Positions 9,580 through 63,871 of a stretch of 64,000 nucleotides of DNA are shown one piece after another. Numbering within the stretch: the stretch's first letter is position 1; every line of letters starts with the position of its first letter. Position numbers and translations under genes: made by a program. Below the pieces are notes generated by a model that saw nothing but the letters and a program-made list of their open reading frames with translations, did not search any database and was not told where the DNA came from. The stretch is taken from positions 1 through 64,000 of the forward strand of contig JAHDVF020000673.1 in NCBI GenBank assembly GCA_022606425.2, written 5' to 3'. The DNA comes from Lepidostoma basale. Lineage: Eukaryota > Arthropoda > Insecta > Trichoptera > Lepidostomatidae.

Positions 9580-12500
9580 CTGGAAAAATATAAATTTTGA
9601 ATGTTTTTACTTCAGATAAAATTTCACTATCTAGATATAACCAGAGAAATGAACAATTCAAATTGTATTTAACCTTTATTATTTGGCATATATATTGTTA
9701 TTTGGCAAACCATCGAAAAATGCTAACGATCACCACATTTGCCTAAAAGATAACTAATTAATGCTTTAATTAAAAAATATATGTGGATTAAATAGTATAT
9801 CGCTTGTACGAATATGCAAGAGAGAGCGCATATCAGGTAGAGTGTCCGCTTCGTTTTTATTTCATGGATCATAAATTACAGATGGTAGCATTTCTCGCTA
9901 GTGTTTTGAGCAACAACAAAGGTTTAAAATGATGCAGTCCTACCACATATCACAATGAAACATGGATTGATTAGCAATATATAATATATGATGGATCCGT
10001 CTAGTTCTGCCTAACAGGCCAAATCAAGTATTCATTAGGTTAATGTTTAGGTGACATAAAGTTTTTTTTTAAATTAAAACATTTTTTTTTTATCAACTTC
10101 AGAGTTAATTTTTCTGATCATATTTTGAAGGTTTTACAACTTCATCATTGGGAGAACGATATAACATTTATCTCATTCTCCTGATGATGAAGGTGTAAAA
10201 AAAAACTTCAAAACATGTCCAGAAAATAAACTCAAATGTGGAAAAATGAATGTTTCATAAAAAATTGGCATTATGGAATTCCATAGTGTAAAGATCAACT
10301 TTTTAACCATCATGCTGTTTCTCTAGAGGGGCAGGCAGAGAGGATGGACGGCCATACTGTTCTATCCTGACGTAACCCACGTGCCTCTTCTACATTCGCC
10401 CACCGTGACACACTCTCGTTGCTTGTTCCGACTTCAAACATGGTGCCTTTCAGTAATTGATTAATTAATCATGCTTGGTTATTTACCATTCACACTACTT
10501 CTGTATATCTTTTAAACCATTCTTCCCTTATCAATTCTTTCCATATGTCCAAACCATCTTAGTGTTCTTTCTTCATGGTTATAATCCTGCGGATTGGTCT
10601 GTAATAAGCTTCCATCGATTCCTCCACTCAGTCCTGTTTCCAGCCAGTCTTTTCATTTCTATGTAGCTGCCACAGCGCATGTCTCTTATCACCTGGTTCA
10701 AATAGGCGTCAGCATTTAAGTTTATCAAAAATGAAGATAAAGTCATATTGACTTGGTTAAGTGCAATCCTCACTCTGTTCTCTCGAGGATCATTGGGGCG
10801 GATAACGAGGGCCCAGCGATAGGGCTCCGAGAGCAGCAGCGCTCCTTTGTGCATGAGCACCAGCAGGCGCAGGGGAACCCACCGCAGCAGCGGGCTGAAC
10901 AGCAGCCCCTCCATGCGCGCCACCTCCCCTGCCTGCCGCACCAGGCGGTCCAAACCGGCGCTCTCTTGTAGGGCCTGGATACACACACAACATATAATAT
11001 ATTCAATCTAAAGGAATTCATTATTTTACATTTTATGATAATACAATTGATGACTGGTTATTATAATACAAAGGTGCCAAGTGGTTTAAACATAAAACAA
11101 AGAAAAAGAGAATAAACTGTTTATTGTTGCATGTGTCATGTAACATGGGTGGCATCTTGAGGATGAAGTTTGAACTACACTGTATTATTCAATCACTTTG
11201 TACTAAAATTAATCCCCTTTATTTTTAACACCAATTGGGATCAATAACTCTTTTTTTACTTTTGTGGTACTGAGCACCTTAGAAATGTCCCACCCTCAAT
11301 TATTATTACAAATTATTATGAATGGAAAAATAATAGTTAACAAAGTATATGTTAACAATGTAATCAGAACAAGAAATAGAGAATATCCAAGGAAAAGTGG
11401 CACGATCAAATCAATTAAATATTGGCATGTGAGGAGTCACAGAAATCGGTGCGCACAGGTTAAATATCTGAAAGTTTTGAACCAATTGCTTTGAAATTTT
11501 GACACTCGAATATGTGCATGTTTTTACTTTGGATGTCATCTTCCTGGGAAGTTCCACCCCAGAAGCTATTCTTCTCCCGTCTATTAGAAATTTATTACTT
11601 GGATGTCGAGGTTGGATATTGTTGGATGGTGAGAGAATGGTTTCTTGGAGGATGTAGTGGATCGGGTCTGACATTTGGGCCTGGCTACCTGGGTACGGAG
11701 GAGTTTGGAGGGGTCGTGGGTGGCCATGGACAGGGGCTGAGGTCTTGTGGGTGAAGGACCGAGGGACGGTGACAAGGAGTGGCCTTGGATGGGTGCCGGT
11801 TGGTCCTGGGTACAGAACCGAGTGGGATACAGAACTATAAATTGGTTAACTCTTTAGTGGAACGTTTCTGTGTGTGTGTAAGGATGACCCGAGAACTGAA
11901 CTGGAAAATATTTTTGATTACCTGAATATCGCTGACAGCCAAACCGACCAGCAAGTTGGTGAGGATGATGGTGACCAGTAGGATGAATCCTGTGAAGGTC
12001 ACGTGCGCCGTGCCTGGGTATCTGATCTCGGTCTTGTTCTCCGCATAGAACAGGTCCTCATACTCCAGCTCGCCCGACATCATGACGATAGTCTTGAGAA
12101 GACTCAGGAAGATGTTGTAGTAAGGTTCAAAGTTGGCGAACAGGACCCCGAAGGACAGAGCGAAGGCGATCAGCAAACAGGAATAAGCCATCAGAAACTT
12201 GGAGAAGTTCATGGCAACTGTGGAAACAATACATAGAAACAATAAAATTAGAGGAATTAACAATACAGACTTATTCTTCTTCGTCGTATCAATGGAAAGA
12301 AAGCTATACATTGTACATATATCACAGAAGAGGTACTAAAAAACACTTATATTTCCTCTTTCTCTTGCCATTGTGGTGGAAGGTTTGGCCGATTTTGTAT
12401 ATTTTCCAGGGGGGCAGGTATTAAATAACATCATACATGGAGGTATCTTCCTTGCAACAGACTAACGAATCGTAATCTAAATTAATCAATTCAAATAAAG

Positions 12501-15500
12501 TAATATTTTAAAGAGTTGAAAATAAATATAATAAGTTAAATAACATTATATTTAGTTTCATTTACGCCGAAATATTGCTTCGACCAATTTTTTTTAATTG
12601 CGCTCATTCGAATGGAAAACATCTATATTACTAAAAAAAAAAAAAAAGGCTTATTGTAGCTGTCACTCTGAGCGTAGTTAGTGCGATAAGCAGGAAGGTG
12701 GAAAATTTGACTCGCGGTGTGTCTTGTGCGAATCGTAGGGGTATTTAGTGTCAATTTTCCTAGAAGTTTTATGTAGACAGCATCGATAAATCATATATTA
12801 CATGCCATTATTTTGTTGATCTTTTTCAATGTAACTATTATCTAATATGTATTAAGTGTTGGAAATCCTTGCTGAAAGCCAACGTATCGTTTTGTTGTTT
12901 GTCATAAGCATGGATCCAAATGAGTAGTCTAAAGGCAGTATTACCGGTGGCGAACATCTGCACGTAGAGGCCGAACATGGGGAACCTGCCCACTATGAGC
13001 ATCAGCTCCACCCACGTGAGGAATATTCCGATGGCAGCCACGTGGTGTTGCCAGTTCGACACGTCCTCCTTGATGTTGTCCTCCTCTCCTGGAACCTGGA
13101 ACAAACCAAATTCAAATACGAGTATAAGCAATCGTCACCAGAATTTTGCTCAAAATTACATTTAACGCCAGTCCCACATGGACATTGGACGGGTCTAGAT
13201 ATTGCATGAGCGAAGTTGACAAAATGGCATCTTCTTTCTTCTTATTTCAATAGATCTGACGATCTGTAGCACAGAAGTCATGTCTCCCGGGATGATGAGG
13301 TCCAGCTGTCCCTTCATCTTTTAGGTGGTCTTCCAGGTGGACGGTGTCCAGAGGGGATTTCGTAAGCGGCTGTATATGCGAGTCTGTCACCATCCATTCC
13401 GGCTACATGGTCCCTCCAATATCTTCTTCTGGATCTACTCCATCGAACGATTTCCTCTATTTTGCAAGTTTTTCTTATGTCTCCGTTACGGACACGATCT
13501 CGGAGAGTTTTTCCAGTAATGGATGACACTCTATCATACACAGATTTTCCACACATCCGTCTAAGAGATCTCATTTCTACTGCATTTATTCTACTTTCAT
13601 CCTTGTTTTGCCAGTTTAATGCTTCGCTTCCATACATAAGGGTTTGTGCAAGAACACCATTGTGTACTGCCATTTTACCTTTTTTGGATAGGCTTTTGCT
13701 TGTGAAGACAACTTTAAGTGTACCATTAATTTTGTTGCCTGCCCCAACTCTTATTTCAATATCGCTCTCCACTCGCCTATTCTTTGTAAACTTCTTCTTC
13801 TCCGGTCTCAATCTAAAGATTGGTCTGCAGCAAGGCGACGCATCTCCTCTTCCACTCCGCTCGGTCCTCGGCGACTCTCTTCAACTCCGCATAAGAGGTG
13901 CAGCCCATATCTCGGCAAATCTGGTCTAGGTACTCTTGGCGAGGTCGTCCTCTGCCAATCGATCCCTCGACCATTCCCTCCAATACATCATGCAGAAAAC
14001 ATTCGTGTCGCAACACATGACCAATCCATCTCGCGCGCCTCTCCGCTATGGTGTTCAACACGTGCCTACTATCTTCAACTCTGCTGAGAATCTCTTCATT
14101 TGTAATGTGGTCCCTCCATGAAACATGGGCAACTCGTCGGTAGGTCCACATCTCAAATGCCTCTAGCCTTTTGCGCTCTCTTTCGCCCAGGCACCAAGTT
14201 TGTAAACTACCACCTAAATATACAAAATCATCTACGTGCTCCAGATTTTCACCATTCACGCTAATGTTGCAGATTATTATTATTTTATATTTGCACTCAA
14301 AATGAGTAAACCATTTCCTCGTCCATATTTGAAACAGGGTGCAACTCCGCATCCCGTGTTCATTTAGAATACATAATGTATGAAGTATGGGTACATGCCA
14401 GTGACCCAGTCCTTGCAGTGTATTCTCGGAGCGCTGGTCAACCAACACCATCTGACGGAACCACAAACTAAAAATAAGGACTGGAGTATTGTAGAATGTC
14501 TGGTGTTTTCCTAACACGTCGTTACTCTGATTGAATTGCGTTCTGCCTCGAATTGAAATCCGCGATCCATAACTCCGCGCTACAAAGACTTTCAAATCAG
14601 GAGCCGTTTTAGAGGAGACGAAAAAATAATTATTAAAAATAATTTAAAACCACTTTTATATGTATATTTTTATAAACTTAAGGCGTCAGCACTGTGGAGT
14701 TCTGTGATAACGATTTTTTTGTGAATTAAAATACTTTTTTTTTACACTCGTGAGTGGAACTTAAAAAAAATATTTATTTATTGATCATTTACCAAGTAGG
14801 TTTTAATACCTCCCAACTGGGGTAACCCGTTCTAGGGAGGCATTACTCTTAAATTCCATAATGACGATTTTTTATGAATTAAAACACTGTTTTTATACAC
14901 TTTTGAGTGGAACTCAAAAGTAAACACCGTGGATTTCCATAATGACGATTTTTTTAAATTAAAACACTTATTTATTGTTTCTTGAACAATGATGTAAAAC
15001 TCCATATTACATAATGAATACGAATGAAACTGTCAGTTTTTTAGAAGTTTTATTATATTTTATGGGAATGACATGTTTCGCCCTTCTAAGGCATTATCAA
15101 ATGTGTAACATGTACACATTTGATAATGCCTTAGAAAGGCGAAACATGTAATTCCGATCAAATATAATAAAACTTCTAGAAAATTTACGTTGTCATTCGT
15201 ATTAATTAATTAAAACGCTGTTTTTTACACTTCTGAGTTGAACTCAAAAGTTAACACCGTGAAATTCCATAATGGCAATTTTTTTTATGAATTAAAACAT
15301 TATTGTAAAAATCGACACTTTTATATGATCACTTTATTTGTTTTAACGAACTGGCCGGTTTCGCTCCCTCCGGAGCTTCATCAGAGTTACATAAACTTTC
15401 TAATCGATAGTAAACAAATGTGTTCAAGTGGACTTTTTATCAGTTGTCAAAAGTGTACCTAAGAATTTTTTTAGAACTGCTTAGAATTTGTTTCAAAGCA

Positions 15501-18500: not shown

Positions 18501-21500
18501 GAATGCATTGACAATCCGACAGATTTTAAATCTCACCTAATACCCCACCTTTTTAAATATCCCATAAAATATAAACAACGGTTATCTGATTGCTGTTGTC
18601 AGATGCAGCTCTCATGACTAAAAACATTGTCAAAGCGCCCTTGAGGTGAGCTATTCACGAAAACGGCGCTGTGCAAATTAGCCTAATTATTATTAAAAAT
18701 AAATCGTAAATGAATAAAGCAAGCAATTTATTTTTCTTTTTTATGAAACCATAAGAATCTGTTAATTATAATACAGCGTTGTCTAGCAAATGTAGCCTTT
18801 CACATTGCATTAATAAAAAAGATTTTTCTGCTTAATGCTTACACCTATTCTTAATAGATGGCGGTAGTGTAGATTGAACTAATAACATGTGAAGTGTGGT
18901 GTAACATAGTAGCATATATACAACTTCCAAAAAAAATTGTCACACGTGGTGTTCGTAAGAAGGGCGGAATGGGGAATGTTGTATTACATAAAGCGATCGC
19001 TTAACCCAACCAATGACAGGTCATAAGTCCTGTAAACGCCTCGACCACCATATTCAGTTTCCAAAAAACAATTTACATCTTCGTCTCTGTTGAAATACAA
19101 TCAATCTTTATAATACAGTAATTTACATATGTACAAAATGTATTTTTGTTATTATATTTTTCAAAAAGTGTGTTGTAAGCTGTGAGATTTTTGTTTTTGA
19201 GAATCTTTTTTGTGCTCTTAAAGTAAAAATGGGAATGTCTCTATACCTTCCATTTTATCTTTTAAGGCATTCATTTGTTTTTCCGAAACATTTTCCGTCA
19301 TATTGCATACTAAATATTTACATTTAAAATTCCACCACTCGCGCTGACTGTTAGACAAAATGTTGGTGTGTTTGGTGTCTGGTTCAGTGTGTTTCGCATG
19401 TATAGATGCACTTACGTTTTTTCACCTTCAGCAGCCTTGAAATCACTCCTGAAACGAGCAAATTATTAGCAAATCATATGCATACATTAAGGACAAGCGA
19501 AGTGTATAACACACGTTATATGCAATGTGTATAAAATGCAATTATTTAGCTTATATTACAACTGGCAACAACAGAAATAATGCATTTTGGTTAGTTTATA
19601 AAATGGCAAGAAAACTCCACACATTATAATGCAATAAATAGTCACTTATTCAAATTGATCATAGCAATAAAATAATAGGATAGAAATCTCATTACATCCA
19701 CAGGTTATCTTCTTTTTACAAGTTTATCATAATCACTAATTAAAGTATATTCTAGATTTCACGTTTTCAATATATTGTTCATAAAGACGAATTTTTATGA
19801 ATTAAAACACTGTTTTTTCCACTTTTGAGTTTATTTTTCTCGACATGTTTCGAAGGCTTACACCTTCATCATCGGGAAATCTTGGGAGATCAAATAAAAT
19901 ATGACACGATCAAATAAACTTTTTTATATCGTCCATAATGAGGAGTCGGAACAATTTACAATTGTACGAAAGTTGAGGAGTCTATAGATGTAAGTCTGCT
20001 TTCAGACGGCTTTTTGAGATACCCACCAGGGAGAGATAACTAACTAACTTACTAAGCATCCCCGAAGGGGCAAGCAGAAATAATGAACTGCCACAGTGTT
20101 CTTTACCAGATAGAGATGTTTTTAAAAAAATTAAGCCTGTCTTAGACGCTCGCGTGTGCAAGGAATCAGTACTTGGATTGTTTCCGATTTGTTTGCTATT
20201 TGTTTGTTTTCGACATTGGCTAATTGAACGAGAACATTCATTAATTGTTTAACAAACATTCGTCCGAATGTTGGTACGTGTGTGTAGCCATTGTAAAAAG
20301 TAAGGTTTTTATTGCTGTAATCAGATTGAATTAGTGTACATACTCAAGTATCAATTCGTTGATACTTGATAAAATTGATAATCTGTTTTGAAATATTAAT
20401 GTTATAGCATTATTATTATAATAACGTTTAATACATTCTGCTCATATTTTTTTAACGTATCTTCTTCATAGCAAATATAAAAAATATTAAACTTAGTATT
20501 TAAAATATTAGGTCCTTACATATGAAATTGGCGTTTTGCTGTACTGGCAACTTTGATCTCAAATATCTTCTCTTCGGTTAGGAATTCCGAATTCAAATTT
20601 ATACAGCTATTTACTCAAGTATTTGTGATTCGAAAATTATAATTCGTTTGTTTTTTCCTCAATTGTTTTATTTCTTTGCGTCACTCAGTTTACAAAATGG
20701 AAAACTTGAAATATCGCGTTATTTACGAGTACGAGTTCCACCGTGGCACCAGTGCTGCAGAAACGGCTCGAAGGATTAATGATGTGTATGGCGACGGTGC
20801 CGCAAAAGAAAACACAGTGCGTTTTTGGTTCCAATGTTTTCGTTCTGGAAATTTCGACCTGCAGAACAAGCCCCGTGGACAGCCGGAGACCAAAGTTGAT
20901 AATGAAGAATTGAAGGCTATTGTGGAAACGGATCCATCGCAAACCACGTCCGAGTTAGCTGCAGGCTGCGGTGTTCGTAATAAAACTGTTTTAATCCACT
21001 TGAAGCAAATTGGGAAGGTGAAAAAGCTTGAAAGGTGGGTACCTCACGAATTGAGTGAAGCAAATCAACAAACGCGCGTTGACTGCTGCGTTAATAATAA
21101 TAATAATATGCTTACTTTTAAAGCGCCGTATTTGTGATGTAATCACCTCAAGGGCGCATTAAGACGTGTTTTAAATCTTAAAAATCTAAATGTGACCGCT
21201 TAAAAAACGATCGGTTTGAAAGTATAGTAGAACAAAGTATAAATGTTTAAATTGGGTATGAAATATGAAAAAGATGGGTTTTCAATTTAGATCTGAAATC
21301 TGTCGGATCATTTATGCATCTAAGGTGTGAAGGGAGATTGTTCCAAGCTGATGGACCGGCTACCGCGAACGCTCGATCCCCGAAATTTGTACTGGGGCAA
21401 CGCTTCGGCTCAACTAATCTTCCTATTGCTGAGGAGTTCGCCGAGCGAAGTGTGGATTTCCTGAATTTAGGCTGTCCGTTATACAGAGTTCAGATATATA

Positions 21501-24500
21501 ACTTGGTGCCATTCCATGTAGCGCTTTGAAGACTGTCCAGCAGAGTTTATACTGGATTCTTTCTGGACTTTTAAGCCAGTGAAGTTCTTTGAGATGTTGT
21601 GTTATATGAGACTTTTTTGGAATGCCTTTAATGAGCCTTGCTGCTGCATTGAACGCAGATTGAAATTTGTTTATTTGTTGTTTTGGAATGTTTGCATAAA
21701 TTCCATTACAATAATCAAGTCGTGACACAACGAAGGAATTTACAAGAGTTTTGAAAGTGTCGTGGGGAATACTCCTTTTGACGGATTTTAATCGTCTTAG
21801 GTGGAAGAAACTAGCGCTGACCGTGTTATTAATTTGGGATTTTAGAGACAGATTTGCGTCAAGATAAACACCAAGAAGCTTTGTGGAGTTTTTGGGAACG
21901 ATATCATTGTCAGCTGTTGAAATTGAGGAATGATCGATAAGATGTTGACGCTTTGCGGAAGAAGTCCAGAGAAATTCCGTTTTGGATGGATTTAGTTTAA
22001 GTTTGTTTGATGCCATCCATCTGGATATGACATCAATGCAGTTGACAGTTGTTGACGTAAGATGTTTGGTGTCATCAGGGTTGCAGAAAAAATAAAGTTG
22101 CTGATCATCAGCATAGCAATGTGAGAGGAGGCCAAAGGATTCTATTATTTTGGCAACGTCATTTGTAAACATGATAAATAAAAGGGGTCCTAAAACAGAG
22201 CCTTGTGGCACACCAGATTGGATATTAGTAAATGAGGATTTTTTACCTGCTAGCTGCACAGCTTGTGAACGATCCGACAGATATGAATTTAGCCAGTCTA
22301 TGGCATTACCTCTAAAACCATACGTGATCGCTAATCGTTGGATAAGATATGAGTGATCAATTGTGTCAAACGCAGCGCTCATGTCCAGAAGGGAGAGCAG
22401 TGCCAATTTGCCCGATTCGTTTGCCAGTACTAAATCTGACATGACTCTAAGCAATCCCGTCTCCGTTGAATGGAAACGTCTGTATTACTTGCATTACTCA
22501 ACCGGCACAATAATGAAGGGATTTTGAATCGAATCATTACCTGTGATGAAAAGTGGATCCTGTATGATAATCGGAAGCGCGGTTAATCGCTCTAGGCCAC
22601 TGCTGCTTCATGATAACGCTAGACCACACACTGCACAACAGACGGCTACCAAATTAGAAGAGCTTCAATTGTAATGTCTAAGACATCCACCGTACTCTCC
22701 GGACCTTGCCCCAACAGATTACTATTTTTTTCGAAATTTGGATAACTTCTTGCAAGGGAAAAAATTCAACTCCGATGGGGCAGTCCAAACCGACTTCAAA
22801 GATTTTATTGATTCCCGTCCGAATGTTTTTTTAGTAAAGGGATCGATGAACTACCTATGAGATGGCAAAAGTGCATAGATAGCAATGGTACATACTTTGA
22901 TTAAATAAATATATTATATTTAAAAAAAAAAAAACTTTATGTTCCTCCCATACAAAACGCCAATTTCATATGTAAGGACCTAATACATAAGTGATTATAA
23001 ATATCGATTGAACGACCCAAACACAATATCAATTAGAGTTCTTTGTAATAACCTGATGAAGGTTTGCAAAACAACTGTCGCGACAATCTCATAAAATTTA
23101 TAAAAATATTGTGTTACATAATATTACATTATAATACTAGTGTTTCAAAATTAAATAATTTAATAATGACGAATTTTTATGGATTAAAACACATGTTTCA
23201 AAGGCTTACACCTTCATCATCCGGTGAACGATATAAACTTTATAAAGTTTATATCGTTCTCCCGATGATGAAGGTGTAAGCCTTCGAAACATGTCGAGAA
23301 AAATAAACTCAATAGTGGAAAAAACAGTGTTATAATTCATAAAAATTCGTCATTATGGAATTACACAGTGTTAACGCCTTAAGTTTATCATTTAATAATG
23401 TTGTAGTATCATGGTGTTTAGGCCAAAACAATGGATTATTTAATATCAATATTATTACCAATCGGAAAATTCTGGAGCCCTTGAACGATGGTAGAACCTG
23501 GAGATGAGGTATAATGAGGAGCTGTATAACGTCTACAAAGCACCCAAGCTCTCAATACATGCTAGACTAGGTATGCTGAAATGGGCTGGACATGTGGAGA
23601 GAATGCCATCGTCTCCGGTACCAAAGAAAATCCTTGAGTTACATCCGAGTGGAAGAAGAAGGGTCGCTAGGCCTAGACTCCGATGGGAGGATGAGGTACG
23701 CTGCACAACTACTACAAATTAGAGACTGGAAGGCAGCAGCAAGTGACTAAAGTGCTCGGAGGCGAGGACTGATGGAGGCTAAGGCTCGATATGAGTTGTA
23801 GAACCATCGAAGAAACCTCAAAAAACACAGATTTAAAATATCTTCGACGCGCGGTGACGTCGCAAAACTACAGCCATTTGTTCTATGCAAAGCGACAACC
23901 ATTTCGCAGGAACGTTCTTTTTTGTATCGGTTATTTGCCCTGATGTGATAAGGTGACCATCAAAATCGATTGGTAGATAGTAATAGTGGATACACCAGGC
24001 CCAGGATGAATTAAACATTATTTCAAAGGTCGTTAATATTGTTGCGCGTGCGCATTGATGCGAACTGGAACTAAGCTCGAGCGTTCAAGAGGTGCACCCC
24101 AAACCTGGTGGACAAGGGGACCAGCGGCCTGAAGTCCAACTTGAGCTCGCAGTCCACGTCGCCGATCTCGTGGTCCACCACCCGGATGGCGTCGTCGAAC
24201 TTCTTCAGGTAGTAGGGTAGCACTTCTGGAGTCCGCCGAACTATGAAGGACAGGGCGGAGTGGCCCCCCTTGGTCCTCATTGTCACGTCGCCACCATAGT
24301 CTAAAACAAACAATATTCAGTTAAATTAATGACAGGGGACTATTCGTTTATAGTGTCTATTTTTGTTGCTAGGGCGTAATATCATTAACTATTTTATTTG
24401 TAGACACGTCCAACAAGATAAGGAGTTTCAGCTCCCACATTGGGGGTGCTATTTCCCACTTTGGGAATCACTGGTCTAAATATATCATGCGTAACCACCG

Positions 24501-30500: not shown

Positions 30501-33500
30501 CATCCTTCTTTTGCCAGTTCCGTGCTTCGTTTCTATGTATAATGATATACAATATCGAAAGGATCACTAATACTGGATTCATAGAAGTAAAGCTGATGTA
30601 AATACTGGTGAACGCTGTAAATATGCTCCTAAATCGATCAAAATATGGCACAACTAACTTAATCAAATTGTAAAACATTTTTTAAATCGAATTCAATTTC
30701 AATAAATCTTTAGATGAACGGAAAGGAAACGGAAACAAGGAAAATTATGAAAATAATTTTGCACTTTAATTTTTGTAGTATCAGTTTTCGTGTGGTAAGC
30801 GACTACACTTTTTTTTAATATATTAAAAAGTACTAACAACAAGGATTTTAATCAATGTTATTCGAATTTATTACACAATCTCCAATATGTGTAGAAAATG
30901 GTTCATTATAGGGCGCTGTTATATGTAGGACGGCTAAATAAAAGTGGCAATAGGCTGGACGTAAAGCAAGACGGGGCAATACTCGATGAACATCCAGAAT
31001 ACTTCAGTGGAGGCAATGGATAAAGAAAAGGAGTGTCAAGAGGCCACCTTAAAAAAGGACTGACGATATTGCCCGAATAGCTGGAACGACCTGGTTGCGG
31101 AATGGACAAGACAGGAATGAGTAGAAGAAAATGAAAGAGGCCTATATCCAGCAGTGGAGGGAAGATGGCTAAAGAAGATTAAGAATAAGTTTTAGGACCC
31201 AGCGGGGCCCTTCTAGTGGACTGGTCGCCATCCCCCCTCTTCACAAGGCCTTGCCTTTCCTCCGTGCCAGGTCGCCCTCGGCGTATTTACCTGTATGCAG
31301 GCCAGGCTCCTGGCGCTGGCAGCGCAGTGCAGCGGGGTGGCCTTCTGCGCGTGGTCCCAGGCGCTGACCTGCGCCTTGTGCTGCAGCAGGATCCGGACGC
31401 ACTCCGCGCTGCCCACCAGGGCCGCCAGGTGAAGGCCGCTCCTGCAACCAGACAGTTCTCTCACATATTCAACTCATCCTTAACTCTTCGTCTGCGGGAA
31501 CAGTGTTAATACTCGTTTACTGGACCGGTGGTCACCGGCGGGAAGAATTTTAATATACCTTTCGAGGACTCGACGTAAACTGTTGGATGTGTATTTTTAC
31601 ACAATTATAGTGACATATTTTTCTTCTTCTTATCAGTCGTATTCCTCGTGTTTGAGGGTCGTATCCGTCCTGTAAACCATTGAACATGGTACGCCTGCGC
31701 TCTTGTCACCCGTCAGTCTTCAGGATGCAGCTAATGAGAGACCAGTCAGCTCCGTGATTTAATCGGACCAACGGCTCGGTGGTCGTCCGTGTGGTCGTTT
31801 TCCCTCCACTTTCTTCATGATGATGAGCTTTTCAAGGTTGTTCTGATCTCCCCGGGCTATGTAGGTACTTCAACATTTTCTGAGAGCACATCCCCGAGAG
31901 TCTTGCCCTGATACCTAGCTGATCAATGATCATTCACCACCAGCAGCACATTTCGAAATCATCAATTTTGAACTTCTCTTATGTGTGCATAGTCCAAGAC
32001 CCGCAACCATAAAGGATTAAGGAGAAAAAAAGGGTTTAAACCAGTCTCATCTTGGTCTTGTTAGACATATTTTTGTCTTGCCATATCTTGGTGAGATTTG
32101 ACATAGTATGTGACATATGCTTAGCACATTTTATCCTTGGTTCTAACGTGAGCATTTTGCACAGCACCGTTCAGATGATGTATTTATTTATTTTTAAATC
32201 GGCGCTTTATAAATTCAGTGTATTATTATTATTTACCCCCTATTCACACAGTGTTTACGCACGCAAACTAGAAGCCAATAGTATTTCCCTCTTGAAGAAT
32301 GATTCGTCAATTTGCAAAGTGTTTACCTTCCTTGCGTGTCTCTGAACTGCGGGTCCGCGCCCCCTTTGACCAGCAGCGCCAGCGCGTGCGGCTTGCCCAG
32401 CCAGCAGGCCCACAGCATGCTGATGTCGGCGGCGCCCTCCAGCGCCAGCGCAGCCTCCGCCCTCTCGGCGCACATCAGCTCCCCCGCGCCCCACGTGTCC
32501 ATCTCCTTCAGGCGCTCCACGATCTCATCTGCGGACACACATTTCTATTACTTTTTGCTTACTCCCATTGCATTGCCCGCGCGCTTATACCACGGGTAGC
32601 ATGTAGCTCAAATTCAATTACAACACTTACGAAGTCGGAAATAACTCCACATTATGTTAAATGAAGAATACTAATGAAAAAGTCTGTTTTCTAGATGTTT
32701 TATTATATTTAATGTGAATTACAAGTTTCGCCTGTCTAAGGCATTATCAAATGTAGCGAAAATCAAACGCGTTGTTGTTTACATACGAAAATTAAAGGAG
32801 CAGAATATTCTGCTCCTTTATTGCTCCTGTATTATTCTGCTCCTATAACATGTATATTTAAGAATTTTTATGAATTAAAACACTGTTTTTTCCACTTTAA
32901 AGTTTATTTTTCTCGACATGTTTCGAAGGCCTTCATCATCGGGAGAACGATATAAAACGAGTAGAACGAGTTTTATATCGTTCTCCCGATGATGAAGGTG
33001 TAAGCCTTCGAAACGTGTCGAGATAAATAAACTCAAAAATGGAAAAAAAGTGTTTTAATTCATAAAAATACGTCATTATGGAATTCCACAGTGTGCCTTA
33101 AGTTTATCCTTAAGTTTACGCCTCAAGTTTATCTAAAACATGTATATTTAAACAATAACTTGTTTGATTTTCGCTAAATTTGATAATTCTTTAGACAGGC
33201 GAAACATATAATTCATATAAAATATAATAAAACTTCTAGAAAACAAACGTTTTCATTCCTATTAATTATGAAATTTTGTATTATATTATATATTTTCACA
33301 TCTATCGGTTCTTTGTAGTCTGCAGATTATTGGATAAGTTTGTGCGGAGGCGGAGCGAGCCATTACCCAATTACGAGTATAACGTAATTCCCTGAATACC
33401 TAATTCCTTAGAATCAAGTGCATCTCTGGGCGTGCTGCATTCGCCGGCAAACTTTGATCCTAGTCTTTCTTAATTCTTCATATATTCACTCTTAGTCACA

Positions 33501-44989: not shown

Positions 44990-45419
44990 CTGGAACATAT
45001 TGGAACATGATATCAAAACGTCTATGCTATAACCAATATAATCTAGTATATCTAGATCCTCGTTTTCAATCTTTTGGGCAAGTCTCTCGCGGATGTGTTC
45101 TCAGAGAGTGTTCAAATATTTTGGACACATAGCCCGGAGAGATCTGGACAACCGAAAGTTTATGTGTTTGATGCCAGTTGGTCTTAAACATAAAGGCCAA
45201 TAACTGTGCTAAAGTGCGTAATGATTGAATAATATAGTGTAGTTTACACGTCATACTAATGATGCCACTCGTGGTACGAGTACATGACATATGGAACAAA
45301 AATCAGTTTTTGCTTATTTTCTCTGCTTTATGTTTAAACCACTTGGCACCTTTGTAATGTCTAGTCTAGGTATTAAAAATTCATTATTATGTTAAATATT
45401 CTATTAATATTAATCAAAT

Positions 45420-45565
45420 AACTGTTTTTCCACTTTTGAGTTTATTTTTCTTTTCATGTAAATTTACGATATGAAAGTTATATGGTGTTAACGTTTGTAT
45501 CGTTCTCCCGATGATGAAGATGTAAAATCTTCGAAACATGTCGAGAAAAATAAACTCTAAAGTAA
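45420..45565. repeat. TTCTC/GAAGG hammerhead element with compensatory stem change
   Basis: The minus arm is decayed (TTATTTTTCTTTTCATG). The plus arm at 45503-45547 is complete. Confidence 0.6.
45503..45547 (+). ncRNA. Type I hammerhead motif, stem II covariant
   Basis: Stem I TTCTC:GAGAA; core CCGATGA; stem II GAAGAT:ATCTTC, loop GTAAA, where sister copies have GAAGG:CCTTC; GAAAC (45533-45537); ACATGT; GTC. G to A on one side is matched by C to T on the other. Confidence 0.6.
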
Positions 45566-45569
45566 TAAA

Positions 45570-45790
45570 TACAAATGAAAACGTCTGTTGTTTAGAAGTT
45601 TTATTATATTTTATGGGAATACAAGTTTCGCCTGTCTAAGGGACAATCAAAATCTATTTGATAAAGCCATAGACGGGCCAAACATGTCATTCACATAAAG
45701 TATAATAAAACTTCTAGAAAACAGACGTTTTCATTCGTATTTATATGGAATTTTCCATCATTATTCAAGAAACAATAAATAAGCTCACAA
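45570..45790. repeat. Palindromic TTGATAA hammerhead-like element
   Basis: Minus arm GGGAATACAAGTTTCGCCTG and plus arm GGGCCAAACATGTCATTCAC, with ATAATAAAACTTCTAGAAAA and the far tail AGAAACAATAAATAAGCTCA. Confidence 0.6.
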
Positions 45791-46225
45791 GTGAAAAAAA
45801 CAGTGGTTAGACATTTTAAACTTATAGATTTAAAATAATAAAACACTTTGTATTTAACCACGGTATTGTTATTATAATTGATGCCAACTAGTTTCACTTG
45901 GACTCAAGCTTCATCAAAGCAGTATAACAACAGTTGTTATACTGCCCTGATGAAGCTTGGGTCCAAGCGAAACTCTCTCTCTCAAATCGAATTTTGGCCT
46001 CCCATAACTTGTACCTCCAACTCCGCCGTCTTCCAATGAGCCACCTGGAGGAGCTGCTCCGCATCATTCCCGACCTCATCCTCCCATCTCAGCCTAGGTC
46101 TTCCCACTCGACCCAAGCGAAACTAGTTGTTATCAATTATAATAACCATACCGTGGTTAAGTACGAAGTGTGTTTTAATATTAAAATTTCGTCATTGTGG
46201 AATTTCACAGTGTTTAACGCCTTAA
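45791..46225. repeat. Palindromic hammerhead element (GCTTG/CAAGC family), split by a retrotransposon scrap
   Basis: The minus arm (45840-45925) has TTGATGA, stem II GCTTG:CAAGT, GAAAC, TAGTT. The plus arm begins CTGATGA at 45947, runs through stem II GCTTG:CAAGC (loop GGTC) and GAAAC at 45969, then is interrupted at about 45974. The end ACCCAAGCGAAACTAGTTGT reappears at about 46103, with the tail ATAATAACCATACCGTGGTT. Confidence 0.65.
45975..46103 (-). mobile_element. RTE-like fragment inside a hammerhead element
   Basis: The minus strand reads GRPRLRWEDEVGNDAEQLLQ-type residues and VAHWKTAELEVQ, the same tail as 23.6 kb. Tandem duplication of the CCAAGCGAAACT phrase flanks it, so it may be a template-switch product rather than a clean insertion. 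Confidence 0.5.
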
Positions 46226-46589
46226 CTTTATAAATAATAAATATCCTCCCAGAGTACCTCACTGTCACTCGAAGAATATTCTTTCAACCTCATTTATGGG
46301 GATTATTTCAACTTTTTATTTGATATTCTTGCTTCAAATTCAAATTAATAACGAATTTTTCACTGTACGGTTAGAACGTTTTCAAATACTTCCGCTTTCG
46401 TACTGCTTGTAAACTTTAGTGCAATTTAATAAATATTATGAATATGCAAGAAATTTCTAGAGAGGGGAGCAATGTTTATCTGTGGTCCCGGTGTACTATC
46501 CAAAAATATGTACACTTTTAATCAAAAACTTGTAGCCTCAATGGAAACGTGTAAATTATTAATTTTATAAATATACATGTTTTTTTTAG

Positions 46590-47535: not shown

Positions 47536-47971
47536 ATCTCTTATGTGTGATAAACAAGATTATTTAAAAATAACTATTTTTGTACACTCAATTCCAGCAA
47601 ATTTATCAATTTTGTAATCAGCTCACTAATCACTGTATTATTAGCCTCAGTTTATTTTCTTGTTTCATGTTCTTGCTGGTTACCTTCACTCTTTCTTAAT
47701 AATTCTTGCCCATTGACAATTTTATTAACATTACAAATTGTCATTTCTTTAAATGTGATCATCTTTACTTCTTTCAGCATCACTTTAATCCTGACATATC
47801 TGCTTTTCATTAAAATTCTTCTCATTACTTTTTTTTAGATCCTAATATATTCTTAATCTTGTTAATCCTTTCATATGCCTATTCTTCATTAGCCAAAAAT
47901 AATATTATAAATATAACACTTAATTAAACACTTTTTGTACTTGGTATACAACCACTTTATTTGTGAGGATC

Positions 47972-48013
47972 AGGGCCTACCGGTTTCGCTCTATGCGAAC
48001 TTCGTCAGGGCTT
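47972..48013 (-). ncRNA. Type I hammerhead ribozyme motif, complete consensus
   Basis: Minus strand: stem I GCC:GGC; CTGACGA (48008-48002); stem II GTTC:GAGC with a G-U pair, loop GCATA; GAAAC; self-complementary ACCGGT; cleavage triplet GTA (47980-47978). Confidence 0.72.
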
Positions 48014-48047
48014 TACACATACTAAATGTGTAAAGTATTTATGTATA

Positions 48048-48088
48048 AAGCCCTGAGGAAGCTCGCATAGAGCGAAACCGGTAGGCCC
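48048..48088 (+). ncRNA. Type I hammerhead ribozyme motif, complete consensus
   Basis: Stem I GCC (48050-48052) with GGC (48084-48086); CTGAGGA (48053-48059); stem II GCTC:GAGC, loop GCATA; GAAAC (48074-48078); ACCGGT; cleavage triplet GTA, predicted cut after 48083. Best-formed example in the window. Confidence 0.75.
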
Positions 48089-48544
48089 TCATCCTCACAA
48101 ATAAAGTGATTGTATATTAAGTACAAAAGTGTTTAATTAAGTTTTAAATATGTCTAACCACCAAGTAATTAATGGCCTCTGATCAAATATTATTTATTGC
48201 TACAGTCATGCACTTATATCCAATATTTAATCAATAACCAATGTTTAATCCACTTATTTTATATAACACCCAATTATAATAAGTTCTACATTTATAATCC
48301 AAAACAGTAAAAAGTGAACTTCTTTGGTATTGTACATTTTCACCAGGATACAGATATATTATATTTTCGACAAAATTGGTACTGTTATTTCGTTCGCAAG
48401 AGTACATGATCTTACAATAGACTTCTTTCATTCAGATTGTATTACAGATAAGATAATTTTGTCATCGATGTAACGCAACGGGCATTGCCGGAAATAAATA
48501 AATAAACGGTTCCACGTAAATTTAAAAAAAAATTAATTGTAACT

Positions 48545-49885: not shown

Positions 49886-50024
49886 AAAAAAATAATTTAT
49901 TAGTTTGGATGCGGAAAACAGTGTTTTAATTCATATTTTTAAAACTTATTCGTACATATACGTCTGGTTAGATAGTAGTATTTCTACTTAAACCACTCGA
50001 ATGATATTATAATAAACAAAAAAC

Positions 50025-54336: not shown

Positions 54337-54560
54337 GTGACCGCTTTATTTGCAATTTTTCATACGAATAAACCAATCCGGTTTTCCCATATTGATTTGT
54401 TTTGCTCACTCCGTGGGATGAGATTTAGTGTGGCTCCGTATATTGTGTGTGCGGAGATCTTCGGTTTATTGGACTTTAATTGTGTTTACATTCCGTTTCT
54501 GTTCTTCTTCCCTCTTCTAGCCTCCGCAGTCACAATTCCTCTCCAAATAATATGCATGTA
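54337..54560 (+). other. Unassigned ORF region
   Basis: A 118-codon frame (MTALFAIFHTNKPIRFSHID) runs into the hammerhead repeat at 54.6 kb. Its hydrophobic C-terminal half is read from AT-rich repeat sequence. No family resemblance; probably not a gene. Confidence 0.3.
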
Positions 54561-54609
54561 TTTAATGTTTCTTTTTTATATACTTTGTATACAACACACA
54601 CTTTATTTT

Positions 54610-54658
54610 TTTTTAAATCAAACATGTTTCGGACACACAAGCCCTTCATCAGTGATAT
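54610..54658 (-). ncRNA. Type I hammerhead ribozyme motif, all core bases present
   Basis: Minus strand: stem I ATCA:TGAT; CTGATGA (54652-54646); stem II GGGC:GTCC (one G-U), loop TTGTGT; GAAAC (54630-54626); ACATGT; cleavage triplet GTT. Confidence 0.68.
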
Positions 54659-54764
54659 TACATAAATATAAATATCAAAATATGTTTTTTTAAATCCTAC
54701 GAATATGGTCAGTTTTGACAGATATTATTTCGGAACGTTTATGTTTTTGTTATAACATAAACGT

Positions 54765-55015
54765 TCGTTATATTTAAATTAATGTTTACGATTTTTTATG
54801 AATTTATTGTTAAAAACACTGTTTTTTCCACTTTTAAATTTATTTTTCTCGACATGTTTCGAAGGTTTACACCTTCATCATCGGGAGGACGATATAAACT
54901 GGAAACATGTCGAAACATGTCGAGAATAATAAACTCAAAAGTGGAAAAAGTTTTTTAATTCATAAAAAATCGTTATTATGGAATTCCACAGTGTTAACGC
55001 CGTTTATCTAAAATT
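54765..55015. repeat. TTCTC/GAAGG palindromic hammerhead element, one arm shortened
   Basis: The minus arm 54846-54890 has stem II GAAGGT:ACCTTC with a GTAA loop, CCGATGA, GAAAC, ATGTC and TC.TC:GAGAA. The plus arm retains only GAAACATGTCGAAACATGTC, a duplicated 3' half. The tail GTTATTATGGAATTCCACAG follows. Confidence 0.6.
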
Positions 55016-55314
55016 TATCCAAAAATTATAATAATTTAAAGTTCTTATTGGGGTCCAGGTATTATCTTACAACAAAGGAAATATATCAAATATTGGACTT
55101 GACGTTAAATTTATTTGATTGTTTATAATATTTTATTATTTTTAATTGCTTCTTTAATTGCAAATATTTCGAGATTGTTAAAAAATATATTTTTATTATT
55201 AACATGCAAAATTTCAACGACATTATTTTTGTTAAATGAATGATCTTTTTCAATGAGATGGTCTTATTTATTAATTAATCCATTTATTTATTTGAAATTT
55301 AAAAAAGCATTATA

Positions 55315-55900
55315 ATAATGACGTGTTCTAATTCATGAAAACACCTATTTCGACATATTTCGAAGATTTTACACCTTCATCATTGGGAGAAACTAACCAA
55401 ACATATCAATAACAAAATACAAGAACCTAAGTATTTAACATGTGCAAACTAACATCGGTCAGAGTACCAGGAACAGAACATTAACAATGGCCATCGGGTT
55501 CATGTATTAAAATATATAGTTCCTTTGCTAAATCAATGGCTTTAGTATAAATAATCACCTCAAAACTCCCATTTAAATAATCTTTTTAAAACAAAAATGC
55601 TAACCTATTAAACTCTTGTTAGTGTTATGTCCCTGGTACTCTATCTAATTTTAATTTGTTACATACTAAGTTTCTTGTATTTTGTTTAAAAATATTTATG
55701 GTTAGTTTATCTCGCTCTCCCGATGATGAAAGTGTAAAACCCTAGAAACATGACTAGAGAATTAAACTCAAAAGTGAAAGAAACAGTGTTTTAATTCATA
55801 AAAAAATCTTCGTTAAGTTAGTTAAAAAACATCGTTTTATTTAATTATTATTTTAAAAAATCTTCATTATGGAAATCCACCGTGTTAACGCCTCTTAAAT
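55315..55900. repeat. Composite element bounded by opposed hammerhead-like arms
   Basis: Minus arm 55347-55391 and plus arm 55712-55765 (both decayed) enclose about 320 bases whose own ends are inverted (AACAAAATACAAGAACCTAA against CTTGTATTTTGTTT; AACTAACC against GGTTAGTTT). Organisation parallels 36.2-36.8 kb. Confidence 0.5.
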
Positions 55901-56475: not shown

Positions 56476-56479
56476 ATTA

Positions 56480-57895: not shown

Positions 57896-57915
57896 ATTTT
57901 AAATATGTATCTTTA

Positions 57916-57962
57916 TAATATCACTGAGGAAGGACCGGTTGTCCGAAACATGCCTGATATGT
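57916..57962 (+). ncRNA. Type I hammerhead ribozyme motif, cleavage triplet GCC
   Basis: Stem I ATATCA:TGATAT, a perfect 6 bp; CTGAGGA (57924-57930); stem II GGAC:GTCC, loop CGGTT; GAAAC (57945-57949); then ATGCC where sisters have ATGTC. Everything except the cleavage U is conserved. Confidence 0.65.
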
Positions 57963-58019
57963 ATTTTTTTTTTTAAGTTAGTGTTGTATATACAAATTAT
58001 ATAAAAAAGAAAAGGACAA

Positions 58020-58145
58020 AAAAGGAATGAAAACGTCTGTTTTCTAATAGTTTTATTATATTTTATGGGAATGACATGTTTCGCCTGTCTAAGGCATTAT
58101 AAAATCACATTTGATAATGCCTTAGCAAGCCTTAGAACCCATCAC
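58020..58145. repeat. Palindromic TTGATAA hammerhead-like element, plus arm cut
   Basis: Minus arm GGGAATGACATGTTTCGCCT, center AAAATCACATTTGATAATG, and the plus arm stops after CCTTAGCAAG. Confidence 0.55.
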
Positions 58146-58319
58146 AAATCGCATATCGTTTCTGTGTATTTTCTTGTTTTTTTAACCTTACGCTATAATT
58201 GACACATCTATGGTATTTCAATGCTATTGTCCAAATAATTAGATAATATATCTAATTTGTATTATGATCGAGTGGCAAAACAATGTTCCTTCTAAAATAA
58301 AATCGAATATCCATGTTTT

Positions 58320-58445
58320 TTAAGGCGAAAGACGTCATTTCTATAAATTATAATTGAACTTCTAGAAAACGGACATTTTCTTTCGTATTGATTATTCAAT
58401 ATGGAGTTTTACGTCATTTTTCAAGAAACAATAAATATTTAAATA
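58320..58445 (+). repeat. TTGATAA-family tail fragment
   Basis: AAGGCGAAAGACGTCATTTC, ACTTCTAGAAAACGGACATT, ATGGAGTTTTACGTCATTTT. Confidence 0.5.
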
Positions 58446-60115: not shown

Positions 60116-60224
60116 CTTAAATTTATGTCAATTGTCTGTATCAACTAAAAATTAAATGGAATTAATTCTAATAATTCATGTTTTTAATTGAAATTTCTTG
60201 GTAGAAGTTCATTTTAAATAATGC

Positions 60225-60385
60225 AAACAAAAAAGATAACACAAATTTGTTTTATTATTGTACTTCCACTTGTGTTTATGTTCGGCCGGTTTCGGCAGCT
60301 TGCTGCCATCTTCTGGCCACGTTTATTTATTTATTTTGTATTGACTGAATTAATTCCGTCAATACAAAATAAATAAATAAACGTG
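60225..60385 (-). ncRNA. Hammerhead-like motif (CAGAAGA core)
   Basis: Motif 60283-60320, minus: CAGAAGA (A for U), stem II GGCAG:CTGCC, loop CAAG, GAAAC, CGGCC (cleavage U lost). The element continues as an inverted repeat AATACAAAATAAATAAATAA around TTGACTGAATTAATTCCGTC. Confidence 0.45.
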
Positions 60386-60464
60386 TAACCTAAATATTAT
60401 TACCAAACGAGATATTTATTGTTTATCAAACAATGATGTAAAATTACATATAAAATACTTAAAA

Positions 60465-60625
60465 CAAATGAAAACGTCTGTTTTATAGAAGTTTTATTAT
60501 AATTTATGTGAATGACATGATTCGCCTATTTAAAGCATTAAAAATCACTTTTGATAATACCTTAGCATGGCGAAACATGTAATTCCCTTAAAAATTAATA
60601 AAACTGACGTTTTCATAAACATTAA
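60465..60625. repeat. Palindromic TTGATAA hammerhead-like element
   Basis: Minus arm TGTGAATGACATGATTCGCC; plus arm TTGATAATACCTTAGCATGG then CGAAACATGTAATTCC. Confidence 0.55.
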
Positions 60626-61229: not shown

Positions 61230-61710
61230 CTTGCACCAACAAGTTAAAGCACGCCGCGAATGGGAACACTTTTCAAATCGTTTAAAAATTACCCGTGCAA
61301 TTCGGAACACAAACAAACAATTTGAAACTTATTCTAAACAGGTACCTGCGCGATATGAAGCACGATCGTTTTCAAAACTCGCGGACACGACCGCTCGCGC
61401 GCGCACTGCGATACTCTCTATGGTACTTGGTGCCTGGTGGGCCCTGCTTCCGGTTCGAAATTCGAAATTCTAGCGAGAACTAAAATAATACGCGTCTGCG
61501 GTGGCGCGAATGGTCCGCCGATCCCCGGACCACCGCCGGAGCCGTGTTGATGTTGGGTATCTTCGTTAATTTCTCACGCCGATGAAAACTTAACAATTTA
61601 ATTCTTTTCTTAAAGTTCTCACCGTTTCAAGGTTTTCGGGTGTATTTTTGAGCCGATCGTAAAACGACCGCGTGGAAACTATTTACGGCTACTGGAGATC
61701 TTACCTTCTT
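61230..61710 (-). promoter_or_regulatory. GC-rich island, possible promoter and 5' non-coding exon of the TRPA gene
   Basis: CpG-rich, unlike all surrounding intergenic DNA (GACCGCTCGCGCGCGCACTG; CCACCGCCGGAGCC). On the minus strand, CCTTGAAACG before GTGAGAAC (about 61617-61626) and CATCGGC before GTGAGAAA (about 61590) look like splice donors. No ATG-led conserved frame lies on either strand. Linking it to the channel gene 16 kb away is inference. Confidence 0.3.
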
Positions 61711-61711
61711 T

Positions 61712-63078
61712 CCAACTAACCATCATGCCGTACTCTGTGGATCTAGTTAAACTCATTTCCAACTAACCATCGTGCCGTACTCTGTAGATATAGTTAAACT
61801 CATTTCCAACTAGCCATAGTGCCGTACTCTGTAGATCTAGTTAAACTCATTTCCAACTAGCCATAGTGCCGTACTGTGTAGATCTAGTTAAACTTCTTTC
61901 CAACTAACCATCGTGCCGTACTCTGTAGATCTAGTTCAACTCATTTCCAACTAACCATCGTGCCGTACTCTGTAGATCTAGTTAAACTTATTTCCAACTA
62001 ATCATCGTGCCGTACTCTGTAAATCTAGTTCAACTCATTTCCAACTAACCATCGTGCCGTACTCTGTAGATCTATTATAGTTAAACTCATTTCCAACTAA
62101 CCATCGTGCCGTACTCTGTAGATCTAGTATAACTCGTTTCCAACTAACCATCGTGCCGTACTCTGTAGATCTAGTTAAACTTATTTCCAACTAATCATCG
62201 TGCCGTACTCTGTAGATCTAGTTCAACTCATTTCCAAGTAACCATCGTGCCGTACTCTGTAGATCTAGTTAAACTTATTTCCAACTAATCATCGTGCCGT
62301 ACTCTGTAGATCTAGTTCAACTCATTTCCAACTAACCATCGTGCCGTACTCTGTAGATCTATTATAGTTAAACTCATTTCCAACTAACCATCGTGCCGTA
62401 CTCTGTAGATCTAGTATAACTCGTTTCCAACTAACCATCGTGCCGTACTCTGTAGATCTAGTTAAACTTATTTCCAACTAATCATCGTGCCGTACTCTGT
62501 AGATCTAGTTCAACTCATTTCCAAGTAACCATCGTGCCGTACTCTGTAGATCTAGTTAAACTTATTTCCAACTAATCATCGTGCCGTACTCTGTAGATCT
62601 AGTTCAACTCATTTCCAACTAACCATCGTGCCGTACTCTGTAGATCTATTATAGTTAAACTCATTTCCAACTAACCATCGTGCCGTACTCTGTAGATCTA
62701 GTATAACTCGTTTCCAACTAACCATCGTGCCGTACTCAGTAGATCTAGTTCAACTCATTTCCAACTAACCATCGTGCCGTACTCTGTAGATCTATTATAG
62801 TTAAACTCATTTCCAACTAACCATCGTGCCGTACTCTGTAGATCTAGTTTGACTCATTCCCAACTAACCATCGTGCCGTACTCTGTAGATCTAGTTTGAC
62901 TCATTTCCAACTAGCCATAGTGCCGTACTCTGTGGATCTATTATAGTTAAACTCATTTCTAGTTAAAGCCATAGTGCCGTACTCTGTAGATCTAGTTAAA
63001 CTCGTTTCCAACTAGCCATAGTGCCGTACTCTGTAGATCTAGTTCAACTCATTTCCAACTAATCATCGTGGCGTATTC
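61712..63078 (+). repeat. 47-bp minisatellite, about 29 copies, with 287-bp higher-order repeat
   Basis: Unit TTTCCAACTAACCATCGTGC + CGTACTCTGTAGATCTAGTT + AAACTCA. A 52-bp variant (ATCTATTATAGTTAAA) recurs at 62074, 62361 and 62648, exactly 287 bases apart, marking a six-unit higher-order repeat. Outer copies are more divergent (CCATAGTGCC), as usual for array edges. Confidence 0.92.
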
Positions 63079-63177
63079 TCACGTATAGTTACCATCCGTC
63101 TACACTCATTTTCTAATGATTGAATTTTTACATTCGGTTATTTTCTACATCATCACTCAGGCAACACTGAATATCCT

Positions 63178-63546: not shown

Positions 63547-63722
63547 TGCAATCGGCACGGCACAACAGGCCCAACTGTTTAATGTGGTTACACATGGTTA
63601 ACTATAATAATAAACCTCTTCTGATCAATTTTACAAACCATATGTAAGTGTTAATCGATGTATGATTAAGTGTTTAGAATTCCATAATGATGTTATTAAA
63701 ATAAACAAAAGTTGTTTAAAAA

Positions 63723-63871
63723 TAGAAGAACTAAAAATTCTATAAATGATATGAAATATTCACGACACGTGTTTCGTCTTATGAGGACATCTTCGAGTGT
63801 CGAAGATGTCCTCATAAGACGAAACGTGTCGTGAATATTTCATATCATTTATAGAATTTTTAGTTCTTCTA
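63723..63871. repeat. Near-perfect palindrome with GAAAC-GTGTC motif on both strands
   Basis: Arms of about 72 bases differ by a 2-base indel (ACACGTGT against ACGTGT) and a 3-base center. Each arm has TCGAAGA, stem II GTC:GAC around CTCATAA, GAAAC and GTC, a degenerate hammerhead layout (two core changes). The tail ATTTCATATCATTTATAGAA is shared. Confidence 0.6.

Follow-up and report, generated by a model that had tools for sequence, protein, structure and literature searches.

Hammerhead-like palindromes in a caddisfly contig as probable 3' ends and miniatures of Penelope-like elements

The first 64,000 nucleotides of contig JAHDVF020000673.1 of the caddisfly Lepidostoma basale (GenBank assembly GCA_022606425.2, forward strand), hereafter the window, contain about 35-40 short units, each of which combines a minimal type I hammerhead fold, putative as a ribozyme, with an A/T tail, and most of which are arranged as head-to-head palindromic pairs. 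Comparison of these units with related sequences across the genome makes it quite probable that they are the 3' ends of Penelope-like elements (PLEs) together with miniatures, mostly lacking a reverse transcriptase (RT) gene, which would use the PLE machinery, and that insertion proceeds on two strands and from two starts with the hammerhead fold retained. A first-pass annotation made from the letters of the sequence had proposed a dense hammerhead-like population in about a dozen families, and this population proved to be real.

Along each unit stem I is followed by a CYGANGA-like core, one extra base, stem II, GAAA, a self-complementary stem III, NUH, stem I again and the A/T tail. The skeleton proposed in the first-pass annotation is recognizable overall; however, CTGANGA set directly on stem II and followed by GAAA has no occurrence in the window, one spacer base being present instead, and the core is often family-specific. 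Likewise, the tail with AATAAA(A)CT and a terminal GTGTTTTAAT-like block, which had been ascribed to the elements in general, was seen by eye in some families, most clearly in family A, but not in every family. When 0-2 spacer bases and one core mismatch were allowed, 23 sites were found against a mean of 1.47 and a maximum of 5 in 100 first-order Markov sequences, and in 22 of the 23 a single base, mostly A or T, lies between A9 and stem II; with a palindrome of at least 6 required after GAAA the figures were 14 sites against a mean of 0.12 and a maximum of 1. A scored descriptor gave 28 units at a score of at least 21 and none in 30 second-order Markov controls, 32 units at 20 or more (control mean 0.37), 37 at 19 or more (control mean 1.4), and discriminated poorly at 15 or more (84 window sites, 38 control). 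Randomised sequences, named beforehand as a possible source of similar counts, thus gave far fewer matches than the window. Two of the 28 sites, at 21043 and 41658, are regarded as false, being one mariner sequence present twice, and all descriptor counts overstate the independent observations, because sites of the same family are not independent events.

The hammerhead families of Rfam, through which the elements had been expected to be recovered, gave no result. Nothing in the window reached the gathering cut-off of release 15, and the 23 matches obtained at E<=5 included no hammerhead family; seven loci with the family E core and seven PLE loci, searched at E up to 5 or 10, likewise yielded no hammerhead. 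This silence is attributed to the extra base after A9 and the loop-less stem III, and its practical consequence is that a standard search reports no hammerhead for these elements, its sub-threshold matches belonging mostly to microRNA families (14 of the 23 in the window, several of them falling on the palindromes). Two covariance models were also applied. The model R1, built from 15 window units and not independent of the window, gave 42 window matches at E<0.1, 33 of them at E<0.01. The model R2, built from seven motifs adjoining PLE sequences outside the window with no window sequence used, found 35 sites at E<0.1, of which 24 reached E<0.01 and three belong to family C, which supplied one training motif; its best E-value in 16 kb of bacterial DNA, consisting of two bacterial matches to a 19-base pattern, was 0.7. 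The three sites near 48.0, 33.9 and 54.6 kb which the first-pass annotation had singled out were all found by R2 (48043, E 1e-4; 33899, E 8.4e-5; 54612, E 9e-6) and none of them by Rfam. Two motif patterns searched in viral and bacterial collections had no matches, and no PLE relatives were found in viral contigs.

Covariation of stems I and II is evident when 15 units from about 13 families are aligned (score 0.655 against 0.197 shuffled and at most 0.183 slid); standard pairs here occupy 85.5% of the named-pair cells against 59.9% after shuffling, and changes on both sides are present at all four stem I pairs and at two of the three stem II pairs. A larger alignment of 134 model matches (95 distinct rows) gave a covariation score of 0.620 against 0.177 shuffled, but stems I and II are favoured in it because it was fitted to the model, and there the measures of pairs altered in both partners and of additional pair types were no higher than in shuffles. 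Structure is therefore retained among about a dozen families while sequence changes, and covariation together with the independent model R2 supports the type I hammerhead-like fold. Stem III, which like the 3-8 pair is absent from the model used for the 134 rows, is self-complementary in 82% of cells in the 15 units and in 88% in the larger alignment; it is a loop-less stretch instead of a stem closed in cis.

GAAA, G5 and A9 are among the best conserved positions, and positions 3, 4, 6 and 8 differ by family. C3, U4, A6 and G8 are kept in most copies of families E, F, G, I and J; U4 or A6 is altered in families A, B, C and D, family M has U3 and C4, family H has U3 in one arm, and the family-specific cores include CCGATGA, CTGTNGA, CAGAAGA and TTGATAA. 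In an active hammerhead C3 pairs with G8. In the ribozyme of an Anolis PLE, C3G and G8C each abolish activity, which is partly regained when both changes are combined (PMC11167929). In family K and in the PLE lineage P5 described below C3-G8 is replaced by U3-A8: among the 134 rows the pair is C-G in 114, U-A in 11, U-G in 2, unpaired in 6 and gapped in one, and the U-A rows are restricted to family K (9 of 9) and the cluster of loci L020 and L053 (2 of 2). Since all carriers form one related group, the replacement represents one or few events. Judged by its sequence, U3-A8 is a double change preserving the pair in a lineage with open reading frames (ORFs), and it provides natural evidence for the importance of the hammerhead 3-8 pair in living elements.

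The autonomous partner was sought in the 769-Mb assembly. A GIY-YIG profile gave at least 62 matches with 150 of 541 candidates scored, and two of the loci, L041 and L042, possess an open frame of 758 amino acids with both domains (RVT_1, E 1.4e-13; GIY-YIG, E 6.6e-5); because their flanks are shared, they are either one insertion seen twice or a duplication. A protein search gave at least 1343 relatives (7995 scored), the best named ones being in the moth genus Phthorimaea and the butterfly Euphydryas editha, followed at lower rank by Diabrotica and Schistocerca. In the genome itself a protein search gave at least 59 PLE places (59 of 3702 candidates scored), including more groups with open frames of 831-873 amino acids. 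According to hammerhead and tail sequence, and grouped without a tree, the PLEs fall into five lineages: P1 (L041), P2 (L055, L057, L060), P3 (L056, L058, L059), P4 (GIY-YIG fragments in L014, L024, L026 and L028) and P5 (L053, L054, with tandem and head-to-head arrays of 831-amino-acid frames). At least five kinds of candidate partner are thus present, four of them with open ORFs. All eight further PLE stretches, L053-L060, have an R1 match beside the ORF at E<0.01 as calculated for that search, in six of them at a distance of 136-222 nt past the ORF match and in two between adjacent ORFs, which substantiates the link to PLEs raised in the first-pass annotation. Two other GIY-YIG matches, L049 (contig C102) and L050 (contig C729), are bacterial-looking genes, presumably UvrC-like, and parts of the assembly may therefore be bacterial (symbiont, contaminant or transfer).

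The ORF with RT and GIY-YIG domains is present in lineage P1, the autonomous partner of family C, whereas the miniatures themselves carry none, and most window units are without coding sequence. The earlier statement that no Penelope RT occurs in the window holds for the RT domain; however, a decayed GIY-YIG-like stretch is present (Table 1), which in tblastn matches P0058 and P0100 more weakly than P0111 and the P1 ORF only at E 0.032, and family C is lineage P1 itself (88-94% identity), that is, a PLE 3' end. Against block-shuffled controls the tails of five other families match particular lineages: A with P4 (z 7.8), H with P4 (z 11.1), K with P5 (z 4.6), E with P3 (z 4.2) and G with P2 (z 6.3 and 4.8). 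Upstream of C3 the conservation of miniatures stops at about -14 in family A, -13 in family E and -4 in family K, and copies of P1 and P3 remain alike across the 45 bases examined. The 16-base core of family E has 408 occurrences in the genome and its reversed pattern has none, the core being common to close relatives (L004, L010). As part of the whole explanation, the use of PLE machinery by these RT-less miniatures is considered quite probable from the tail matches.

The way of insertion was examined in 15 distinct fetched two-armed insertions of family C, after removal of repeats (L036 and L047 equal L032, L039 and L048 equal L016, and L042 equals L041) and with nine loci (L022, L023, L027, L029, L030, L033, L034, L044, L052) omitted from the tail count as single arms, partial arms or nested copies. 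In all 15 one arm ends at an inner site (4761-4776 in L041) and the other at an outer site (4802-4831), the tail ends of L041 being read by eye owing to an AT run. A similar combination of one long and one shorter tail was found in 16 of 17 testable miniature insertions, 15 of them in the window and 2 elsewhere, with miniature A5 left out since its right arm is cut; in the window M pair one arm continues into the start of a P4-like tail, compared without an independent reference. At exact boundaries, flanking direct matches with a score of at least 9 accompany 11 of 14 fetched family C insertions (L041 being omitted for its AT run) against 6 of 182 cross pairs, and by eye the targets of PLE insertions are AT-rich. 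Between the two arms the inner ends are offset by at least 31 nt (31 to about 2300) in 14 of the 15 and by just 2 nt in L046, the arm junctions show fillers, repeats or short overlaps, and copies of one family have different centres. The fillers in L045, L032, L016 and L019 contain short stretches that repeat or copy parts of the adjacent arm, resembling template switching in end joining. Within an insertion the arms differ at 0 of 965 and 1 of 1261 positions in the closest pairs and by 3-5% in L018, L019 and L031, and among 12 insertions compared none was read as having arms from clearly different subfamilies. Of the 30 arms, 29 span the predicted cleavage site and the remaining one starts 12 nt past it; successful templates are therefore as a rule uncut there.

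These features would be accommodated if the PLE protein cut both target strands and complementary DNA (cDNA) were primed by each cut 3' end on sense RNA, starting at either of two sites that lie about 40-45 nt from each other; the two cDNAs would then run toward each other and be joined end to end. Since both arms share their source but begin at different sites, copying one RNA twice is the simplest model, in which the second enzyme would have to use the other start site; less simply, two RNAs from one locus may have been copied. The hammerhead may be retained as a folded element which is bound by, or processed with the help of, the PLE protein, and cleavage would not be needed in RNAs that become inserted. 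A biochemical precedent is the Poseidon PLE, which cleaves and extends both strands, starts reverse transcription at two adjacent internal sites, and has a protein-assisted hammerhead, which requires the protein for cleavage and whose ribozyme-dead RNA inserts normally in vitro (PMC11167929). Uncut templates and this ribozyme-dead insertion together favour, as we infer, a role of the fold itself rather than of cleavage in binding or staging the RNA. The insertions compared allow the mode of synthesis to be tested directly by sequence, and the outcome favours synthesis on both target strands with two different starts; if this is true, the two-start reaction would automatically yield the mirrored copies whose origin has been a puzzle in the field. 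The full chain, in which insertion from two starts on one RNA makes mirrored copies, the fold and not cleavage is kept, loss of the canonical catalytic pair is tolerated provided that positions 3 and 8 can pair (U3-A8), and RT-less families live off PLE lineages, is put forward tentatively, its truth being judged a little less probable than its failure.

Several observations weigh against this explanation. The 5' ends of the miniatures at the edge of the hammerhead are not accounted for by the proposed model, and in vitro the RT start of Poseidon did not differ between the strands (PMC11167929). The tail rule is broken by the pair K6, both arms of which are short-tailed, and by the window family C pair at 36.2-36.8 kb, both arms of which stop near the inner site (4765, 4759); the shorter arms of E_L005 and K4 end well before the usual inner site, and for families A, K, B, H and I the reference came from one tested arm, so that in 5 of the 17 miniature insertions the long arm is long by construction. 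Three of the 14 family C insertions are without clear duplication, and in a flank test of +-60 bases 19 window insertions were not separable from cross pairs (own mean 9.8, cross 9.4), because families share tails and nest within each other. As for partnership, the tail of family E also scores with P2 (z 3.8; 2 of 300 shuffles), families B, I, M and F had no clear lineage by tail in the block-shuffle test, and the 55 tail-lineage comparisons, from which families D and J were left out, are uncorrected. The P5 hammerhead matches are weak (21.4 bits in L053 and 20.1 in L054), and that of L054 was lost in a larger search.

Among other explanations, two RNAs joined via the self-complementary stem III of two hammerheads might each provide one of the two templates for an insertion. 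This is unlikely, but it retains more weight than the remaining alternatives: the loop-less stem III remains self-complementary in most units, and dimeric hammerheads are described from newts and axolotl (PMC6155905, PMC7229834). However, clearly different arm subfamilies were not met in the 12 insertions compared, though the arms of L018, L019 and L031 differ by 3-5%, and two separate templates give no reason for unequal tails.

Self-priming, in which a fold-back of the cDNA or antisense template leads to copying of the palindrome, was proposed for rotifer Penelope elements from junction palindromes as the source of head-to-head copies, with the question left open (PMC3846280). The near-symmetric arms of miniatures and the almost equal inner ends of L046 agree with it, but fold-back priming predicts equal inner ends in general, and their inequality in the other 14 family C insertions compared favours two-strand priming instead; the fillers and short overlaps at junctions, as well as outer ends which lie at two start sites and adjoin flanking duplications, likewise make self-priming improbable. 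The retrozyme reading suggested by the first-pass annotation, according to which tandem units self-cleave to circular RNA that is then reverse transcribed, has the attraction that type I hammerheads occur in short A/T-rich units of many invertebrates (PMC7229834), but it is very improbable here: the window contains no tandem array of the unit, including no 170-400 bp direct repeats of it, and inverted pairs with unequal tails are seen instead, while almost all PLE arms cross the predicted cleavage site, none begins exactly at it, and the miniatures start upstream of it. Palindromic DNA transposons of the foldback or miniature inverted-repeat type, resembling hammerheads by chance, would explain near-perfect palindromes and the flanking duplications of some copies, but are hardly credible given the unequal tails, the centres varying within one family, an RNA fold that is specific to one strand and covaries, and the presence of the same ends on RT-coding elements.

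With regard to known systems, minimal type I hammerheads with a short or missing stem III were reportedly described in PLEs and Terminons by Cervera and De la Pena in 2014. With that set, as cited in later papers, the present units have in common the short or missing stem III and the PLE association; they differ in family-wide changes of C3-G8 to U3-A8, of U4 or of A6, and may differ in the extra base after A9. In SINE-LINE partnerships (short and long interspersed elements) the non-autonomous families have a 3' tail in common with an autonomous lineage; here the partner would be a PLE and the insertions are mirrored. Metazoan non-LTR (long terminal repeat) retrozymes likewise are short, non-coding and rich in A/T, and they carry type I hammerheads (PMC7229834), but the units described here are not tandem, have no ends at the cleavage site and no closed stem III. 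The closest likeness is to the Penelope/Poseidon PLEs (Adineta vaga Pen, Anolis PAc), which are described as having an ORF with RT and GIY-YIG, head-to-head inverted terminal copies, an optional tail of about 30-40 nt, AT-rich targets, target duplication and a hammerhead motif (PMC3846280, PMC11167929). In Anolis PAc, as described there, the hammerhead lies at the ORF start, whereas here P1 and six of the eight other loci have it past the end of the ORF; the two placements become equivalent in tandem arrays. Differences are also the abundance of RT-less miniatures, the near-constant one-long/one-short tails and U3-A8 in one clade. Previous reports cover the hammerhead of PLEs as well as their inverted terminal copies, their optional tails and the two sites of RT start (PMC6155905, PMC11167929, PMC3846280). 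In the open-access literature searched, within the portions consulted, no report was found of lineage-paired RT-less miniatures, of a U3-A8 core in PLEs or of the one-long/one-short rule; as far as searched, the first two of these, and the insertion pattern with two starts, are new.

Table 1. Elements of the window, in order of position (strand given for single units).
Element	Position	Strand	Remarks
Family J unit, weaker	3449-3500	+	
Family K pair	4966..5504		LINE-like fragment splits pair; 11-bp flanking match AATAGTATTTT
Family A head-to-head pair	10060..10292		decayed
Family K head-to-head pair	14965..15224		core TTGATAA, U3/A8; sits in a family A tail
Family F single unit	15337..15396	-	
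Family A single arm	19780..19885	-	
Family A head-to-head miniature	23158..23400		left arm with short tail, right arm with long; flanking match ATTTAATAATG
Family K pair (K6)	32660..33275		encloses nested family A pair; both arms short-tailed
Family A head-to-head miniature	32843..33151		nested within arms of family K pair; flanking match AACATGTATATTTAA
Family F pair	33801..33955		33.9 kb site of the first-pass annotation
Family C pair (C2)	36188..36790		centre of ~400 bp; 8-bp flanking match ATTATAAC; tail-rule exception
Family I head-to-head pair	38967..39190		8-nt self-complementary stem III ACAGCTGT
Family B palindrome	39171..39439		core CTGTAGA; flanking match AAACAGTGTTTC
Family G unit, weak	40098..40147	-	
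Family J unit	40236..40330	+	
Family C, 3' end of PLE lineage P1	40729..40946	-	88% to L041 over 234 nt; core CTGTCGA
Family C / P1 3' untranslated region (UTR), further piece	42191-42327		beyond a mariner
Family A pair	45408..45563		family K pair cuts right arm
Family K pair	45565..45785		
Family H head-to-head pair	45829..46241		other insertion interrupts right arm; tail matches lineage P4
Family E head-to-head pair	47911..48149		48.0 kb site of the first-pass annotation
Family G single unit	54560..54662	-	54.6 kb site of the first-pass annotation; tail matches lineage P2
Family A head-to-head pair	54785..55008		right arm 5'-truncated
Decayed remnant resembling PLE GIY-YIG domain	55129..55263	-	tblastn E 1.1e-5 with P0111
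Family A pair	55315..55895		long inserted centre
Family G single unit	57914..58019	+	
Family K pair	58020..58445		
Family D unit	60178..60325	-	core CAGAAGA
Family K pair	60413..60616		
Family M palindrome	63687..63901		8-nt stem III ACACGTGT

Some further sequences are present in the window. A palindrome with 72-bp arms, 99% complementary and 113 bp apart, adjoins the family F pair at 33517-33773. Mariner-like transposase fragments lie at 41066-42025 and 20643-21137, the first of them separating the two pieces of the P1 PLE 3' UTR. A second repeat family, partly palindromic and with no hammerhead core by eye in the copies read, is found at 16979-17180, 18855-19112, 27161-27372, 35666-35850, 38767-38948, 49513-49900 and 57462-57887, and a tandem array with a 47-bp unit and a 287-bp higher-order period extends over 61705-63079. 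Open frames resembling exons occur on the minus strand at 11835-32500; with their ankyrin-like repeats and a terminal part similar to an ion channel, we take them to resemble an insect TRPA-type gene, and many of the elements sit between these frames.

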